From assembly GCA_947488345.1 (NCBI GenBank), contig CANKZQ010000002.1, positions 620,001-684,000 of the forward strand: 64,000 bases of DNA, read 5' to 3'. The stretch is from an uncultured Flavobacteriaceae bacterium. GTDB lineage: Bacteria; Bacteroidota; Bacteroidia; Flavobacteriales; Flavobacteriaceae. A program made the position numbers and the translations under genes. The notes below the pieces were generated by a model. The model made no database searches and was not told the origin of the DNA. It worked only from the letters and a program-made list of their open reading frames with translations. Positions within the stretch are counted from its first letter, which is position 1; every line of letters begins with the position of its first letter. Below, piece by piece: positions 1,005 to 6,264 of the stretch.

Positions 1005-1553
1005 TTAATTTAAGTTGATAGTAAACCCACAATCGAAAATGATAATATTATTATCAAATTGAGATAAATCTACTTCACCACTTACGGAAACCTTTCCCTG
1101 AACTCCTTCAAAATCGAAAGTTCCATCAAAGATGTTATCTTCTGTAGGTGTAAAGCTAGTTTCAAAATTTCCATTTGCCAGTGGCGTTTGCAACACCTCA
1201 TTTAATGAAGTAATGGTTCCTTTACCAGTAAAATTATATACCGTTATTACTTGTGATAAAAGCGAACCATCTTCAAATTCTTCTGTGCCTATGTCACAAT
1301 CTTCTAAAGTTCCTAAAACTTCTCCTGTTTCGGCATCAACCAAGTCCATTAAAAAGCAGAAAGCTTCTACTATTTCACCAGTTTTAGGGTTCACAATGTT
1401 TTTTACTTGCCCAACTGAAGTACCAACACCTTTCACATTTAATTGTGTAATCGGCGTAGGTTGATTATTGTTATAGTCATCATCATTATTGCAAGCAACG
1501 AATACAAATGAACTTAATACGATAGCGATAATTGTTTTACTAATGTTTTTCAT
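1005..1553 (-). CDS. Lipoprotein, possible allene-oxide-cyclase/dirigent-like barrel
   Basis: The 182-aa protein starts with a signal peptide ending in the lipobox FVAC followed by an Asn/Asp-rich linker, so it is probably a lipidated outer-membrane protein. The mature part has an F-x-D-x-x-TG-x-x-x-G segment, then GKGTI, then GTFDFEGVQGKVSVSGEVDL. This spacing resembles AOC-barrel/dirigent-type folds, but that reading comes from pattern only. Two cysteines around residues 86 and 105 and one near the C-terminus may form a disulphide. It is the last gene of a minus-strand run, 49 nt after the 66-aa membrane protein gene. The lipoprotein call is solid; the fold call is tentative. Confidence 0.75.
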   Translation of the reverse strand: MKNISKTIIAIVLSSFVFVACNNDDDYNNNQPTPITQLNVKGVGTSVGQVKNIVNPKTGEIVEAFCFLMDLVDAETGEVLGTLEDCDIGTEEFEDGSLLSQVITVYNFTGKGTITSLNEVLQTPLANGNFETSFTPTEDNIFDGTFDFEGVQGKVSVSGEVDLSQFDNNIIIFDCGFTINLN

Positions 1554-1602
1554 GATTTTAAATTTAATGTTTATGAATTTTTAATTTTAATAGTTTTAAT
1601 TT

Positions 1603-1803
1603 TTATCCGAATAGATTTATAATGAGTCTTCCTAATACATACATCCCTGGAAAGAAGGTAAGGCAAGCAATTACGATTACTATTCTTTGCCATGTTGTAT
1701 AGTTAGTTTCTGATGCATTCTCATCACGAGCATCTATGGAGTATTTCCATACTTTACCTGCGCTATTCATTTCAGAATTTTTGAGTTTACCTAAAAGCTT
1801 CAT
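1603..1803 (-). CDS. Small membrane protein (66 aa) coupled to the fatty acid hydroxylase
   Basis: The 66-aa product has a polar N-terminal half and one hydrophobic segment (about residues 40-63, IVIVIACLTFFPGMYVLG), so it is predicted to be a single-pass inner-membrane protein. I recognise no family. Its ATG overlaps the TAA of the upstream hydroxylase gene by one base (TAATG), a typical translational-coupling arrangement, which suggests the two are made together. It may be an accessory subunit or stabiliser of the hydroxylase, but that is inference from position only. Confidence 0.7.
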   Translation of the reverse strand: MKLLGKLKNSEMNSAGKVWKYSIDARDENASETNYTTWQRIVIVIACLTFFPGMYVLGRLIINLFG

Positions 1804-2576
1804 TATTCTTTTGTTGTTATATCTTTAAACAGCAGCATCTCAGTTATTTTAGCTGACGCACCTTCATAATATCCCGTTTCATGCTCATAGCCTTTTGGAT
1901 TTTTAAAGGTCCCGAAAAGCATATCTATAAGCGGTAAATCAGTATAGTTGTACCCGTGTATCCCTCTAGCATGATGTATAGTATGACTTTCTGGTCGTTG
2001 AACTATATAGCCCAACCACCGAGGGGTATTAATATTGGCATGTTGAAAAATACCTAAGAAAGTAAGCGTAAGTATAATTATCGTGATTGCCTGTGGAGAT
2101 AAACCCATAATTAAAGCAAAACTAACTGAACCCACCAATGATAAACCGATCATATCATTTATGCTAAATACAAAAGCACTCGGCACATCTAATCTTTCAG
2201 AACTATGATGCATTTGATGAGATATTCTGAATAAAAAATCAGATTTATGCATACTTATATGCCAACCATATTGTACCAATTCAAATAAAAATATCCCTAA
2301 CACAACCTGAACAAATAAGCTTTGAGAGCTTAGATTTAGTAATTGATAAGACGCTAGGAAATCATCCCATACCAATGGTATATATGTAGTCATTACTACA
2401 TATGCAAAGAAGAAAATAATCCCTCTAAGTCTCCATAGTTTTATTTTAGGTAATTCTCTGGCTGGAAAAACTGATTCCCAAACCATTAAAGCTCCAAATA
2501 TGGCCATTACGACCAAGGATACCGGGTCAATAACTATTTCAAGTGGTGTTGGTAAGCTTGCTATCAAATCTTTCAT
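1803..2576 (-). CDS. Fatty acid hydroxylase / sterol desaturase family membrane protein
   Basis: The 257-aa integral membrane protein has several hydrophobic spans and the histidine clusters of the fatty acid hydroxylase superfamily: HISMH, HQMHH, and HTIHH followed by HGYNYTDLPLIDMLFGTF. These ligate a di-iron centre that inserts oxygen into, or desaturates, lipid chains. The substrate cannot be read from sequence; fatty acid, sterol-like, hopanoid and carotenoid substrates are all known for the superfamily. The start at 2576 lies one base after the stop of a 33-codon ORF (2578-2679), and the gene ends in a one-base overlap with the 66-aa membrane protein gene, so it is embedded in a tight operon. 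Confidence 0.9.
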   Translation of the reverse strand: MKDLIASLPTPLEIVIDPVSLVVMAIFGALMVWESVFPARELPKIKLWRLRGIIFFFAYVVMTTYIPLVWDDFLASYQLLNLSSQSLFVQVVLGIFLFELVQYGWHISMHKSDFLFRISHQMHHSSERLDVPSAFVFSINDMIGLSLVGSVSFALIMGLSPQAITIIILTLTFLGIFQHANINTPRWLGYIVQRPESHTIHHARGIHGYNYTDLPLIDMLFGTFKNPKGYEHETGYYEGASAKITEMLLFKDITTKE

Positions 2577-2577
2577 A

Positions 2578-2679
2578 TCATAGTATTTTTTGATTGTTCA
2601 ACTTCTGTTTAAGATTCTCTTTTCTTCGTAACCAAATACTTTTCAAGGTCAATTGGTCTTCTCTTTTTTTTGCTCTCAT
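2578..2679 (-). CDS. Predicted 33-aa basic small protein, not in the ORF track
   Basis: Between the methyltransferase stop (2684) and the hydroxylase start (2576) the minus strand reads ATG AGA GCA AAA ... ATA CTA TGA, 33 codons. It begins four bases after the methyltransferase stop and its TGA ends one base before the hydroxylase ATG, so it fills the gap almost exactly. The product is Lys/Arg-rich (starts MRAKKREDQ, contains WLRRKENLKQK) with no hydrophobic segment, and would be a short cationic, probably helical peptide. The packing is the main evidence. It could instead be a leader ORF that only serves reinitiation at the hydroxylase gene. Confidence 0.5.
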   Translation of the reverse strand: MRAKKREDQLTLKSIWLRRKENLKQKLNNQKIL

Positions 2680-2683
2680 TTTT

Positions 2684-3757
2684 TTATTTTTCTGATATAT
2701 AATAAGCGTTCATAATATCCTTTTCGATACGCTTAACAACTGTCGATTTAAACCCGGCTTCTTTTAACATTTGCGCTGCTTTTTGTGTTCCCCACATGGT
2801 ACCAAGCCCCATTCCGCCCTGAGCTAAAGAGACCGTCATACAGTGCGCTGTAGATATCGAATACAATGATGGCGCTAAAGGATGCTCTAAATTCTCTTCT
2901 AAATTTGAGGAAGCATCTATATCCATCATCAAATAAGTACCGCCAACATTCAAATTGCTGTAGATGTTTTTTAACACCTTATTAGGAAAAGCCTGATCGT
3001 GAATAGCATCGAATGTGGTAATTAGATCGAACTTATTGTAGAAATCAAGTTCAGCTGCATCCATCTTTAAGAAGGTCGCATTATGCAGCTTTAACATGGT
3101 AGCATCTTTTACTGCTTGATCGATAGGCCCTTTGCAAAAATCAATACCTATAAAAGTACTGTTAGGAAAAACTTTTGCCAAAGTATTCATAGCAGTTCCA
3201 CTACCGCAACCAATGTCTAACACATTGATTCCTTTTTCAAGTTTTTCGATCATACCATCTATCAAGGGGATCATTTCAGTGATAAGATTGCTTTTGTAGT
3301 TTTGTCCGCTATCCTCAGCCATCACTGTATGGAATCTCTCAAATTTATCATATGAGACTCCACCTCCATTTTTAAAGCATTCGAGCAATTCATTTTCAAC
3401 ATTCGCCATTACTGGGATGTATTGAAATAAAGTTGCGAAGTTATCGCTACCCGCGTCTCTAGTTAAGAAGGCGGCATGTTCTGCTGGCAAAAAATATGTT
3501 TTGTTCTGGGAATCATACTTCACAATCTTACCAACAGTCATCGCCGCCAACCATTCTCTTACATAGCGTTCGTTTATACGATTTTTATTTGCAAATTCTT
3601 GAGATGTAATTTTACCAGACTCACTTAATAGATCGAAAAGCTTTGCCCTATGACCAATAGATATCATAACTGATAATGATGCTTTATTAAAAGTATCTAA
3701 CATAGCACCTGCAAATGCTTCTGCCTGTTCTAAGTTGATGTTACATAATTGACACAT
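2684..3757 (-). CDS. Class I SAM-dependent methyltransferase with N-terminal winged-helix domain (Rv2258c-like)
   Basis: The product is about 357 aa. Residues about 15-115 look like a winged-helix dimerisation domain, then comes the SAM-binding fold with motif I VLDIGCGSGTAMNTLA and the acidic residue at the end of strand 2 (IGIDF). This layout matches the Rv2258c-like group of small-molecule methyltransferases. The track starts at 3799, but a TAnnTTTG-type minus-10 box at 3797-3804 would put transcription start inside that extension, so I use the ATG at 3757 (MCQLCNINLE). It is the first gene of a compact set with the 33-aa ORF, the hydroxylase and the small membrane protein. The substrate is unknown; a lipid or terpenoid product of the hydroxylase is a guess. 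Confidence 0.85.
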   Translation of the reverse strand: MCQLCNINLEQAEAFAGAMLDTFNKASLSVMISIGHRAKLFDLLSESGKITSQEFANKNRINERYVREWLAAMTVGKIVKYDSQNKTYFLPAEHAAFLTRDAGSDNFATLFQYIPVMANVENELLECFKNGGGVSYDKFERFHTVMAEDSGQNYKSNLITEMIPLIDGMIEKLEKGINVLDIGCGSGTAMNTLAKVFPNSTFIGIDFCKGPIDQAVKDATMLKLHNATFLKMDAAELDFYNKFDLITTFDAIHDQAFPNKVLKNIYSNLNVGGTYLMMDIDASSNLEENLEHPLAPSLYSISTAHCMTVSLAQGGMGLGTMWGTQKAAQMLKEAGFKSTVVKRIEKDIMNAYYISEK

Positions 3758-3796: not shown

Positions 3797-3804
3797 CAAA
3801 AGTA
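3797..3804 (-). promoter_or_regulatory. Bacteroidetes-type -7 box (TACTTTTG) of the methyltransferase operon
   Basis: The minus strand reads TACTTTTG, matching TAnnTTTG. Nineteen bases upstream the sequence is TTC, one base from the TTG of the -33 element. The expected transcription start, near 3790, lies downstream of the track's start codon at 3799 and upstream of the ATG at 3757, which decides the start of the methyltransferase. Confidence 0.5.
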
Positions 3805-3870
3805 ATTGGGCGTTGAAGTATTTGAAAATAAACCAAGTAGACTCTAGGTAGTGGGCACTAATACTTTAAG

Positions 3871-3895: not shown

Positions 3896-4006
3896 TTTTC
3901 AGTAAACAACAAGTAGACAGTCCGATTTAAAATATTGAAAAACAGAATTTTAAAGAGTGTTAAATTTTAAGAAATTCTATTCAAAAAAAAGTGTAAAAAA
4001 ATAATT

Positions 4007-5698
4007 TTAAGCTCTTTCTAGTTGTAAAAAGTAGCTTAAAAGCTCATCTTCCGGGTCGAGATGTAGTTTTTTGCGAAGCCTATAACGTGCAGTTTTAGCA
4101 CTTTCGGGTGAGATTCCTAGAATACTAGCGGTTTCTTTAATGTTAAGGTTCAAACGGGTTAGTGTACAAATCTTCAAATCATTTGCACTTAGATCAGGAT
4201 GTTTTTCTTGTAATTTTTTATGAAAATCAACATGTACTTCTTCAAAAAATCGTTTAAAATCTTCCCAATCTCTATCAATATTTACATGCCGCTTGATTGT
4301 TCGACTTAGTTCATCAATAAGCTTATTTTGTTCTTTTACAGAAGAGTTTTTAGCTAAAATTGTCTTTTCTTGTAATTCTTGTAATAACTCATTTTTTTGA
4401 ACAAAATTCAAGGCATATGAGGTCAGTTCTTTATTTTTAAAATCTAGTTTTTGTTGTAATTCCTGTTGCTTAAGATGAGCATTTTCTAATGCTGCGTTGG
4501 CCAATTCTTCTTTAGAACCCAATAATTCTTGCTTACGTTCGGCTAACACTTTATTTCTAAGGTTTCTTTGTCTAAGACCGTTTATTACTAATAAACCTAT
4601 AATTGTAAGGGCAATTATACCAACAAACAAACTCCATTTAATAATTTTACTAGAACGTTCTTCCTCTTTTAACAAGGCTACTTCTTTTTCTTTTTTACTG
4701 AGTTCATTGTTAAATTCTAATGCCGCTATTTGCTTAGATTTATCAATATTGTAAATAGAATCTTTTAGAGCAATAAACTTGTCATAATACTCTAACGATT
4801 CTTTTAGCTTACCTTCTTGTTTATTAAGGATTTTTAATTCTTTATAAGCCTCTAGTTGATACTTACGTAATTTTTTTTTGTTAGCCTTATCTAAAGCTAA
4901 ATTGAAATGAATTCTAGCGGCTTCAAAATCTTTCTTTATAACCAACAACTTTCCAAACTGAATTAGACCACCTATAAGCCCATCTTCATCATTTATACGC
5001 TTACTCATGACAATTGCTCTACTAATGTGATGTGTTGCCTGCTCTAATTCATTTTGTAGCAAAAATAATTCCCCCAACTTATTATGTGCTTCGGCCATTC
5101 CATATGTGAAATCACTTTCGGAATGCATGTTCAGCGCATTCGTTAAATATTCTTTGGCATCATATAATTTATTCTGAAGAATTAAAACGGAACCAATTTT
5201 TGTAAAGGTCGTTGCCACTCTTTGTTTTAAGTTCAATTGAGAAAACTTTTCAATTGCCCTATCATAGATTTCTAAAGCTCTTTTAAAATCCTCTAAATCT
5301 GCATATACCATGCCTGTATTCATTAGGCTATTGGCATAGCCTGCTTCATCATTAATTTCCGCATACTTCTTTTGTGATTCAGTAAGATACTCAAGAGCTA
5401 ATTTAGGTTCACCTAAAGTCCAGTAAGCAACACCCAAGACTCTCTTAGCTTTAGCAACTCCTGAGTCGTATGACAACTCCTGAGATAACTTTAACGCTCG
5501 CTCTGCATAATCAATAGATTCTTGAGAATTTACAACCCAATAATTATAGCCGATTTGATTTAGTATATCTATCGTTTTTTCATTCTTATCTACAGTAATT
5601 TTTAATTCCTTTTGGAGGCTATCAATTGTTTTGAGTATTTGTCCATCTACCGAAAAAGTCGAGAATAAAACAAATATAAAGCAAAGAAAACGTTGCAT
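4007..5698 (-). CDS. TPR-containing membrane-anchored regulator with C-terminal LuxR-type helix-turn-helix
   Basis: The 563-aa protein has a signal peptide (to about residue 19), tetratricopeptide repeats over about residues 40-300, a transmembrane helix around 352-372 (WSLFVGIIALTIIGLLVING), a long coiled-coil linker, and a C-terminal DNA-binding domain (LSANDLKICTLTRLNLNIKE, then ILGISPESAKTARYRLRKKL). This periplasmic TPR / membrane / cytoplasmic HTH layout is a common Bacteroidetes regulator type. It is transcribed on the same strand and just upstream of the methyltransferase-hydroxylase cluster, so local control is plausible but unproven. A TATATTTG box lies at 5717-5724, close upstream of the ATG. 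Confidence 0.88.
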   Translation of the reverse strand: MQRFLCFIFVLFSTFSVDGQILKTIDSLQKELKITVDKNEKTIDILNQIGYNYWVVNSQESIDYAERALKLSQELSYDSGVAKAKRVLGVAYWTLGEPKLALEYLTESQKKYAEINDEAGYANSLMNTGMVYADLEDFKRALEIYDRAIEKFSQLNLKQRVATTFTKIGSVLILQNKLYDAKEYLTNALNMHSESDFTYGMAEAHNKLGELFLLQNELEQATHHISRAIVMSKRINDEDGLIGGLIQFGKLLVIKKDFEAARIHFNLALDKANKKKLRKYQLEAYKELKILNKQEGKLKESLEYYDKFIALKDSIYNIDKSKQIAALEFNNELSKKEKEVALLKEEERSSKIIKWSLFVGIIALTIIGLLVINGLRQRNLRNKVLAERKQELLGSKEELANAALENAHLKQQELQQKLDFKNKELTSYALNFVQKNELLQELQEKTILAKNSSVKEQNKLIDELSRTIKRHVNIDRDWEDFKRFFEEVHVDFHKKLQEKHPDLSANDLKICTLTRLNLNIKETASILGISPESAKTARYRLRKKLHLDPEDELLSYFLQLERA

Positions 5699-5724: not shown

Positions 5725-5946
5725 GTAATTGGAGGAAAATAAATAACCTGTAAAGTGTTAATTAAGAAAACTTTAAGCGCAAATCATAATAACGCTAAAT
5801 AATATTAAAAACGCTGTGTCATTCATAGAAACAATTAAGTGACACCTTCAGGGTAACTTCTTATTTCACATTATTTGATTTCAAATGAAATCAAAACAAG
5901 CTAAATAGAACAATGTTGGCTCCTGAACCCTACTTTTTTATACTTA

Positions 5947-5980
5947 AAAAGCCTACAAATAATATTATTTGTAGGCTTTT
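5947..5980. terminator. 34-bp perfect palindrome, probable bidirectional terminator
   Basis: AAAAGCCTACAAATAAT is followed directly by its exact reverse complement, so the arms have 17 bp with no fixed loop. The A-rich and T-rich ends give a U-run on both strands. On the minus strand it would stop transcripts that pass the tRNA-Ser remnant before they reach the regulator gene. Confidence 0.65.
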
Positions 5981-6003
5981 GTTGCTATTTGATAGCATTT
6001 TCA

Positions 6004-6017
6004 GCGGAGAAAGAGGG
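6004..6017 (-). repeat. Duplicate of the tRNA-Ser 3' end
   Basis: The 14 bases GCGGAGAAAGAGGG recur exactly at 6179-6192, where they form the acceptor-stem 3' end, discriminator and part of the T-arm of tRNA-Ser. Each copy is followed on the minus strand by a terminator-like hairpin. This fits a decayed tandem tRNA copy or an old integration scar. Confidence 0.55.
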
Positions 6018-6172: not shown

Positions 6173-6179
6173 CCTTTTG

Positions 6180-6264
6180 CGGAGAAAGAGGGATTCGAAC
6201 CCCCGGACCTGTTACAGTCAACAGTTTTCAAGACTGCCGCATTCGACCACTCTGCCATTTCTCC
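6180..6264 (-). tRNA. tRNA-Ser (anticodon UGA)
   Basis: The minus strand folds as a class II tRNA: acceptor GGAGAAA pairing with TTTCTCC, D-arm GCAGAGTGGTCGAATGC, anticodon loop CTTGAAA (anticodon TGA), a long variable arm around GTTGACTGTAAC, and T-arm GGGGGTTCGAATCCC. The discriminator is G, as expected for serine. CCA is not encoded (the next bases are CAA). Confidence 0.96.

Follow-up and report, generated by a model that had tools for sequence, protein, structure and literature searches.

A tRNA-Ser-associated operon built around a membrane hydroxylase and a barrel lipoprotein in a flavobacterium

What would bring a methyltransferase, a membrane hydroxylase, two small proteins and a lipoprotein together in one compact flavobacterial operon, and where does that operon begin and end? 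The locus lies in a 64,000-nucleotide stretch of DNA from an uncultured Flavobacteriaceae bacterium, referred to here as the window. A sequence-only reading had proposed five co-transcribed genes downstream of a TPR-LuxR regulator and linked them to a modified-lipid or oxylipin-like pathway.

The extent of the operon and its place beside tRNA-Ser

All five of the proposed open reading frames are present on the minus strand at the proposed coordinates, with gaps of +4, +1, -1 and +49 nt. The operon extends past window position 1, where DNA of the same genome (L079) completes an M43 metalloprotease lipoprotein gene; 33 nt further on comes the gene of a PhnD-like lipoprotein. The full unit is thus made up of eight genes, namely the TPR-LuxR regulator and seven operon genes, with 249 nt between the end of the regulator gene and the downstream methyltransferase gene:

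L079:6939-7850, beyond the window start, same strand as the M43 gene: PhnD-like lipoprotein gene
1-819, minus: M43 metalloprotease lipoprotein gene, 5' part (whole gene L079:7884-8819)
1005-1553, minus: barrel lipoprotein, 182 aa, AOC/dirigent-type by structure model, lipobox Cys21
1603-1803, minus: 66-aa single-TM-like protein, an orphan ORF whose start overlaps the hydroxylase stop
1803-2576, minus: PF04116 membrane fatty acid hydroxylase-like protein, 257 aa (Pfam)
2578-2679, minus: small basic protein of 33 aa, which TPR-type loci conserve immediately ahead of the hydroxylase start
2684-3757, minus: Rv2258c-like SAM methyltransferase, 357 aa (ORF from ATG 3757, Pfam), an apparent local addition
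4007-5698, minus: TPR-LuxR type regulator, 563 aa (ORF with TPR domains and a weak C-terminal HTH)

Chance ORFs are ruled out because most of the genes recur in the same order in other genera, where the hydroxylase, lipoprotein, 33-aa ORF and TPR gene occur together more than chance would allow. A single transcription unit with its regulator upstream is backed by the compact spacing and by a conserved promoter architecture, and the operon genes are probably co-transcribed.

The unit has borders defined by a direct repeat and a tRNA gene:

L079:6657-6728, outside the window: left copy of a 72-bp direct repeat, 97% identical to the right copy
5946-6017, plus: right copy of the repeat, ending in GCGGAGAAAGAGGG
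6179-6264, minus: tRNA-Ser (anticodon TGA), found with ARAGORN; the sister genomes have the same tRNA

The two repeat copies both finish with GCGGAGAAAGAGGG, which is also the 3' end of tRNA-Ser, and apart from the regulator and the seven genes of the operon nothing of size lies between them. Two sister species (G015 and G016) match both flanks, the match stopping near L079:6.8 kb and resuming at window position 6179. Between these points they carry other DNA, about 28 kb in G015 and about 7.6 kb in G016, the latter with ABC-exporter and TolC-like genes. The locus has features of a tRNA-site genomic island, in that a duplication of the tRNA 3' end flanks an insert and the contents differ between sisters. 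Inspection of the cassette ORFs revealed no integrase, and the barrel lipoprotein is absent from all other genomes of the genus sample. Flanking sequence and gene content together indicate that the flavobacterium acquired the eight-gene unit as a self-contained cassette at tRNA-Ser.

The hydroxylase and its neighbours

The hydroxylase passes the Pfam model PF04116 with 84.1 bits against a gathering cut-off of 31 (E = 1.5e-23), and the residues of its histidine boxes (HX3H, HX2HH and HX2HH), that is H106/H110, H120/H123/H124, H179 and H198/H201/H202, are invariant among 17 sequences. The nearest NCBIfam model is that of the ornithine lipid hydroxylase OlsE, where the protein scores 51.7 bits against an equivalog cut-off of 475, so far below that it is not OlsE. 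A fold search with its structure model (pLDDT 71.7) gave no significant PDB match, and a plasmid search returned only two remote matches. Enzymes of PF04116 act on many substrates; because of this diversity, "lipid" as the substrate is a prior.

Which genes accompany the hydroxylase elsewhere? A search of 301 family genomes detected the hydroxylase in 22 (E<=1e-20) and the barrel lipoprotein in 9 (E<=1e-5). Six of the nine lipoprotein-bearing genomes have both (Fisher p=5.5e-6), in each case within about 2.4 kb of one another, and a lipoprotein profile detected nothing further in 295 class genomes. The expectation of a conserved neighbourhood therefore holds for the hydroxylase and the lipoprotein. 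It fails for the combination of hydroxylase, 66-aa protein and methyltransferase, as no other genome has the 66-aa protein (201 sampled) or, at the thresholds used, this methyltransferase (201 family and 295 class genomes).

All-against-all clustering of the neighbours at 35 relative hydroxylase loci returned regulators of Crp type (16), TetR type (8), TPR-LuxR type (4) and another TPR type (4), along with a methyltransferase that we take to be METTL7-like (12), an M43 protease (11) and the barrel lipoprotein (7). Other neighbours are PHB-depolymerase-like and alpha/beta esterases, beta-lactamase-fold hydrolases, a TonB-type outer membrane protein and PhnD-like proteins. The M43 protein of the window is 59-65% identical to those of 10 hydroxylase loci, and its PhnD-like protein is 59% identical to those of L014 and L019, where the gene order is Crp - hydroxylase - M43 - (hydrolase) - PhnD-like. 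Judged by gene content, the recurring core joins a one-component regulator and a PF04116 hydroxylase to exported partners (barrel lipoprotein, M43 protease, esterases, PhnD-like protein), and a methyltransferase of another kind is often present. Related units with swapped parts appear across flavobacteria and probably act on a fatty or otherwise hydrophobic molecule. Two genomes (G034, twice, and G136) encode the hydroxylase in one frame with a lipobox-like segment, a TIG domain and an NHL propeller, in proteins of more than 700 aa, a fusion that points to joint action of the hydroxylase and an exported partner. These hydroxylase-TIG-NHL fusions lie at loci L065, L066 and L067.

The methyltransferase seems to have a different history. 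Its proposed Rv2258c-like identity proved correct, as Pfam finds an HTH_65 domain (Rv2258c-like winged HTH, 7.7e-33) and a class I methyltransferase domain, and near-full-length matches are obtained to Rv2258c of M. tuberculosis (PDB 5f8c, E=9.6e-103) and to TnmJ (8g5s, 1.2e-37). At E<=1e-50, no other genome among 201 family and 295 class (Bacteroidia) genomes contains it, a cyanobacterial plasmid protein is 51.5% identical to it, and the neighbours of its plasmid homologs are unrelated and without a common theme. FmtB of B. pertussis, a fatty acid methyltransferase (PMC5426589), was considered as a lead and dropped, since that paper merely cites the Rv2258c structure and offers no link. The 66-aa protein has no relative in the 201 family genomes and matches no family over cut-off. 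From these distributions the methyltransferase looks horizontally recruited, and it and the 66-aa protein are best read as local additions.

The 33-aa ORF has no Pfam match. Its matches among the loci occur only between the TPR gene and the hydroxylase, abutting the hydroxylase start. Intact relatives have 34-36 codons and share the pattern T..(I/L)W..R+...K(L) in L025, L026 and L061, more weakly in L017, L049 and L063, and the L015 version has a frame break. Three silent changes and one conservative change separate the close copies in L025 and L026. The ORF is real in part of the family. A roseobacter plasmid, on which a homologous methyltransferase gene is followed by one for a DUF1127 protein, raised the option of a DUF1127 identity; it was rejected, as the ORF is without the DIGL end and the Pfam match.

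The barrel lipoprotein and the predicted operator

The lipoprotein reaches no Pfam family cut-off and has no PDB sequence match; AOC and dirigent Pfam models likewise give no match to lipoprotein sequences other than a weak Dirigent match (E 0.082) in the tandem relative L075. Its AlphaFold2 model, built from eight sequences, is a ten-strand barrel with a pLDDT of 84.5, for which the high-probability Foldseek matches in the PDB are PloI4, AbyU, Cyc15, PodA, AOC and dirigent proteins (best match E 4.4e-4, probability 1.00; TM 0.4-0.6, 12-17% identity). OmpA-type matches have low probability, and the best structure match in a viral library is named "Allene oxide cyclase superfamily protein". The earlier guess of an AOC/dirigent-type barrel is thus borne out by the model, which places the lipoprotein in the AOC/dirigent/AbyU/PodA fold; this fold alone does not confer AOC activity. 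The fold includes enzymes with unusual chemistry. PodA, one of its members, is a barrel enzyme that inactivates pyocyanin.

Relatives of the lipoprotein show further arrangements. The protein at L075:1387-2514 has 375 aa and apparently two tandem barrel domains. At L074:1489-2205 (the L047 locus), the remnant of a second hydroxylase N-terminus is in frame with the barrel lipoprotein, and an intact hydroxylase gene adjoins. In L068 and L072, from genomes in which no hydroxylase was detected, the lipoprotein lies beside METTL7-like methyltransferase or SCO1/TonB-type genes, neighbours that also occur in hydroxylase loci.

Orthologs of the TPR-LuxR regulator, 49-66% identical, lie upstream of the hydroxylase in eight other loci. 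In the window, the DNA between the regulator and the operon contains the following elements:

3797-3804, minus: -7 promoter element TACTTTTG (TAnnTTTG)
3835-3842, minus: predicted operator, proximal half-site GTCTACTT, at -38 from the -7 box
3900-3918, minus: predicted operator, distal half-site pair GTCTAC/GTTTAC with an 11-nt period, at -114 and -103 from the -7 box

Nine TPR-type loci (the window, L015, L017, L025, L026, L049, L059, L061 and L063) share same-strand half-sites GTNYACY at -114, -103, -71, -49 and -38 from TAnnTTTG, with spacings of 11, 32, 22 and 11 nt that correspond to near whole helical turns. The background identity of these loci is 29-70%, the sets are incomplete in some of them, and the -49 site of the window is poor. 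None of 2000 sequence rotations reached the observed scores, for a pattern that was chosen after viewing the sequences and in loci that are related by descent. A strict search for the distal pair gives just two places in the genome of 3.8 Mb, and the second was discarded as lying inside a coding gene. In relatives, the genes after TAnnTTTG are the 33-aa ORF and the hydroxylase; in the window the methyltransferase comes first and so separates the promoter from the conserved genes.

The hydroxylase tree pairs the window protein with a Crp-linked one (81% identity) and has TPR-LuxR-linked members in both main groups, a topology indicating that the pairing of regulator and hydroxylase has been reshuffled. 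TetR-linked loci (L008, L009, L010, L022, L024, L027, L031 and L038) have a palindrome-like element of the ACAGACTAGTTGGTA ... TACCAACTAGTCTGT type upstream of the hydroxylase, which is a likely TetR operator. A TetR protein from the hydroxylase loci of relatives is weakly like AcuR and ScbR, with scores far below the equivalog cut-offs.

Function and comparison with known systems

The reading that we place first, and hold tentatively, is that of an acquired, self-contained operon that oxidises and tailors a hydrophobic metabolite, probably an acyl lipid. In the chemistry and step order that we infer for such a substrate, the TPR-LuxR protein would respond to a signal by activating, rather than repressing, the operon through the phased half-sites that lie ahead of a Bacteroidota-type promoter. 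In the inner membrane, the di-iron hydroxylase would add a hydroxyl group to the substrate, and the Rv2258c-like methyltransferase may methylate this molecule or one related to it. The AOC/PodA-type barrel lipoprotein, located beyond the inner membrane, could bind or rearrange (isomerise) the product, and the other exported proteins may act on the same target. Features seen in the sequence or the models count in favour of tailoring: the invariant histidines, the barrel fold, the co-occurrence of hydroxylase and lipoprotein, the recurrent partners, the fusions, the bounded cassette and the shared promoter. Against it count the methyltransferase and the 66-aa protein, which are not conserved with the hydroxylase, the unrelated contexts of the plasmid methyltransferase homologs, the distant barrel alignments, and the M43 and PhnD-like proteins, which do not suggest lipid chemistry.

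It is possible, if on the unlikely side, that the cassette serves detoxification, oxidising, capping or binding an external hydrophobic or electrophilic compound (e.g. an algal metabolite) sensed by the regulators, with a PodA-like lipoprotein. The accessory position at tRNA-Ser, where a sister genome has exporter genes, is consistent with this, as are PodA among the top fold matches and the varied regulators of the relatives' loci, including the TetR protein; however, the low TetR scores, a cassette without an efflux pump, and M43 and PhnD-like lipoproteins ill-suited to simple detoxification all speak against it.

We consider it unlikely that the genes are a loose assemblage with a mobile site and a promoter in common and no single pathway, in which the unit would be hydroxylase plus regulator and the rest cargo. 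Partners do differ widely among loci, close hydroxylases have different regulators, and within the samples only the window genome has the methyltransferase and the 66-aa protein. Against such an assemblage stand the association of hydroxylase and lipoprotein, the M43 proteins of 59-65% identity in 10 loci, of which two share the PhnD-like gene as well, and the fused hydroxylase forms.

A bolder extension of the tailoring reading, which we regard as improbable, is an envelope pathway of a new class, in which a lipid oxidised by the inner-membrane hydroxylase would be cyclised or isomerised, beyond that membrane, by AOC-barrel lipoproteins. The product would be an oxylipin-like bacterial signal or protectant, and flavobacteria would pass the pathway on to each other in cassettes of regulator plus operon. 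A true oxylipin-like pathway, with the lipoprotein cyclising an unsaturated oxidised fatty acid like plant AOC, is very improbable: AOC structures are among the fold matches and a fatty acid hydroxylase-type enzyme adjoins the lipoprotein, but the cassette showed neither a lipoxygenase nor an allene-oxide synthase, and the AOC matches are no better than those to Diels-Alderases or PodA.

Whatever its product, the locus reveals a recurring Flavobacteriaceae gene neighbourhood, centred on a membrane hydroxylase, that is not known to have been described, and adds a new lipoprotein family that the model assigns to the AOC/AbyU/PodA fold. Because the operator prediction for the TPR-LuxR regulator is concrete, the inducer and the operon product can be sought directly. 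Literature outside subscription journals on hydroxylase operons, bacterial AOC barrels and TPR-LuxR promoters yielded no description of such a system, which is weak evidence.

Each part of the operon has known counterparts. The cassette resembles tRNA-associated genomic islands in its tRNA-Ser site, its repeats ending in tRNA 3' sequence and its varying contents in sisters, but has no integrase and spans only about 7.3 kb. The regulator shares an N-terminal TPR array and a C-terminal HTH-like segment with the SusR and BT3442 families of Bacteroidota TPR-LuxR regulators, while scoring far below their equivalog cut-offs and having phased half-sites predicted for it. Like Rv2258c and TnmJ, the methyltransferase combines a winged HTH with a class I methyltransferase domain across nearly its full length, and differs in its placement in a hydroxylase operon. 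The predicted barrel of the lipoprotein has high-probability PDB matches that are all of the AOC/dirigent/AbyU-PloI4 cyclase/PodA kind, whereas the protein itself is a Flavobacteriaceae lipoprotein without a Pfam model and of low identity to the solved members. With the PF04116 hydroxylase/sterol desaturase superfamily the hydroxylase shares a helical, membrane-type build, all of the histidines and a score over the Pfam cut-off, and it is set apart by belonging to a Bacteroidota group found with exported partners.
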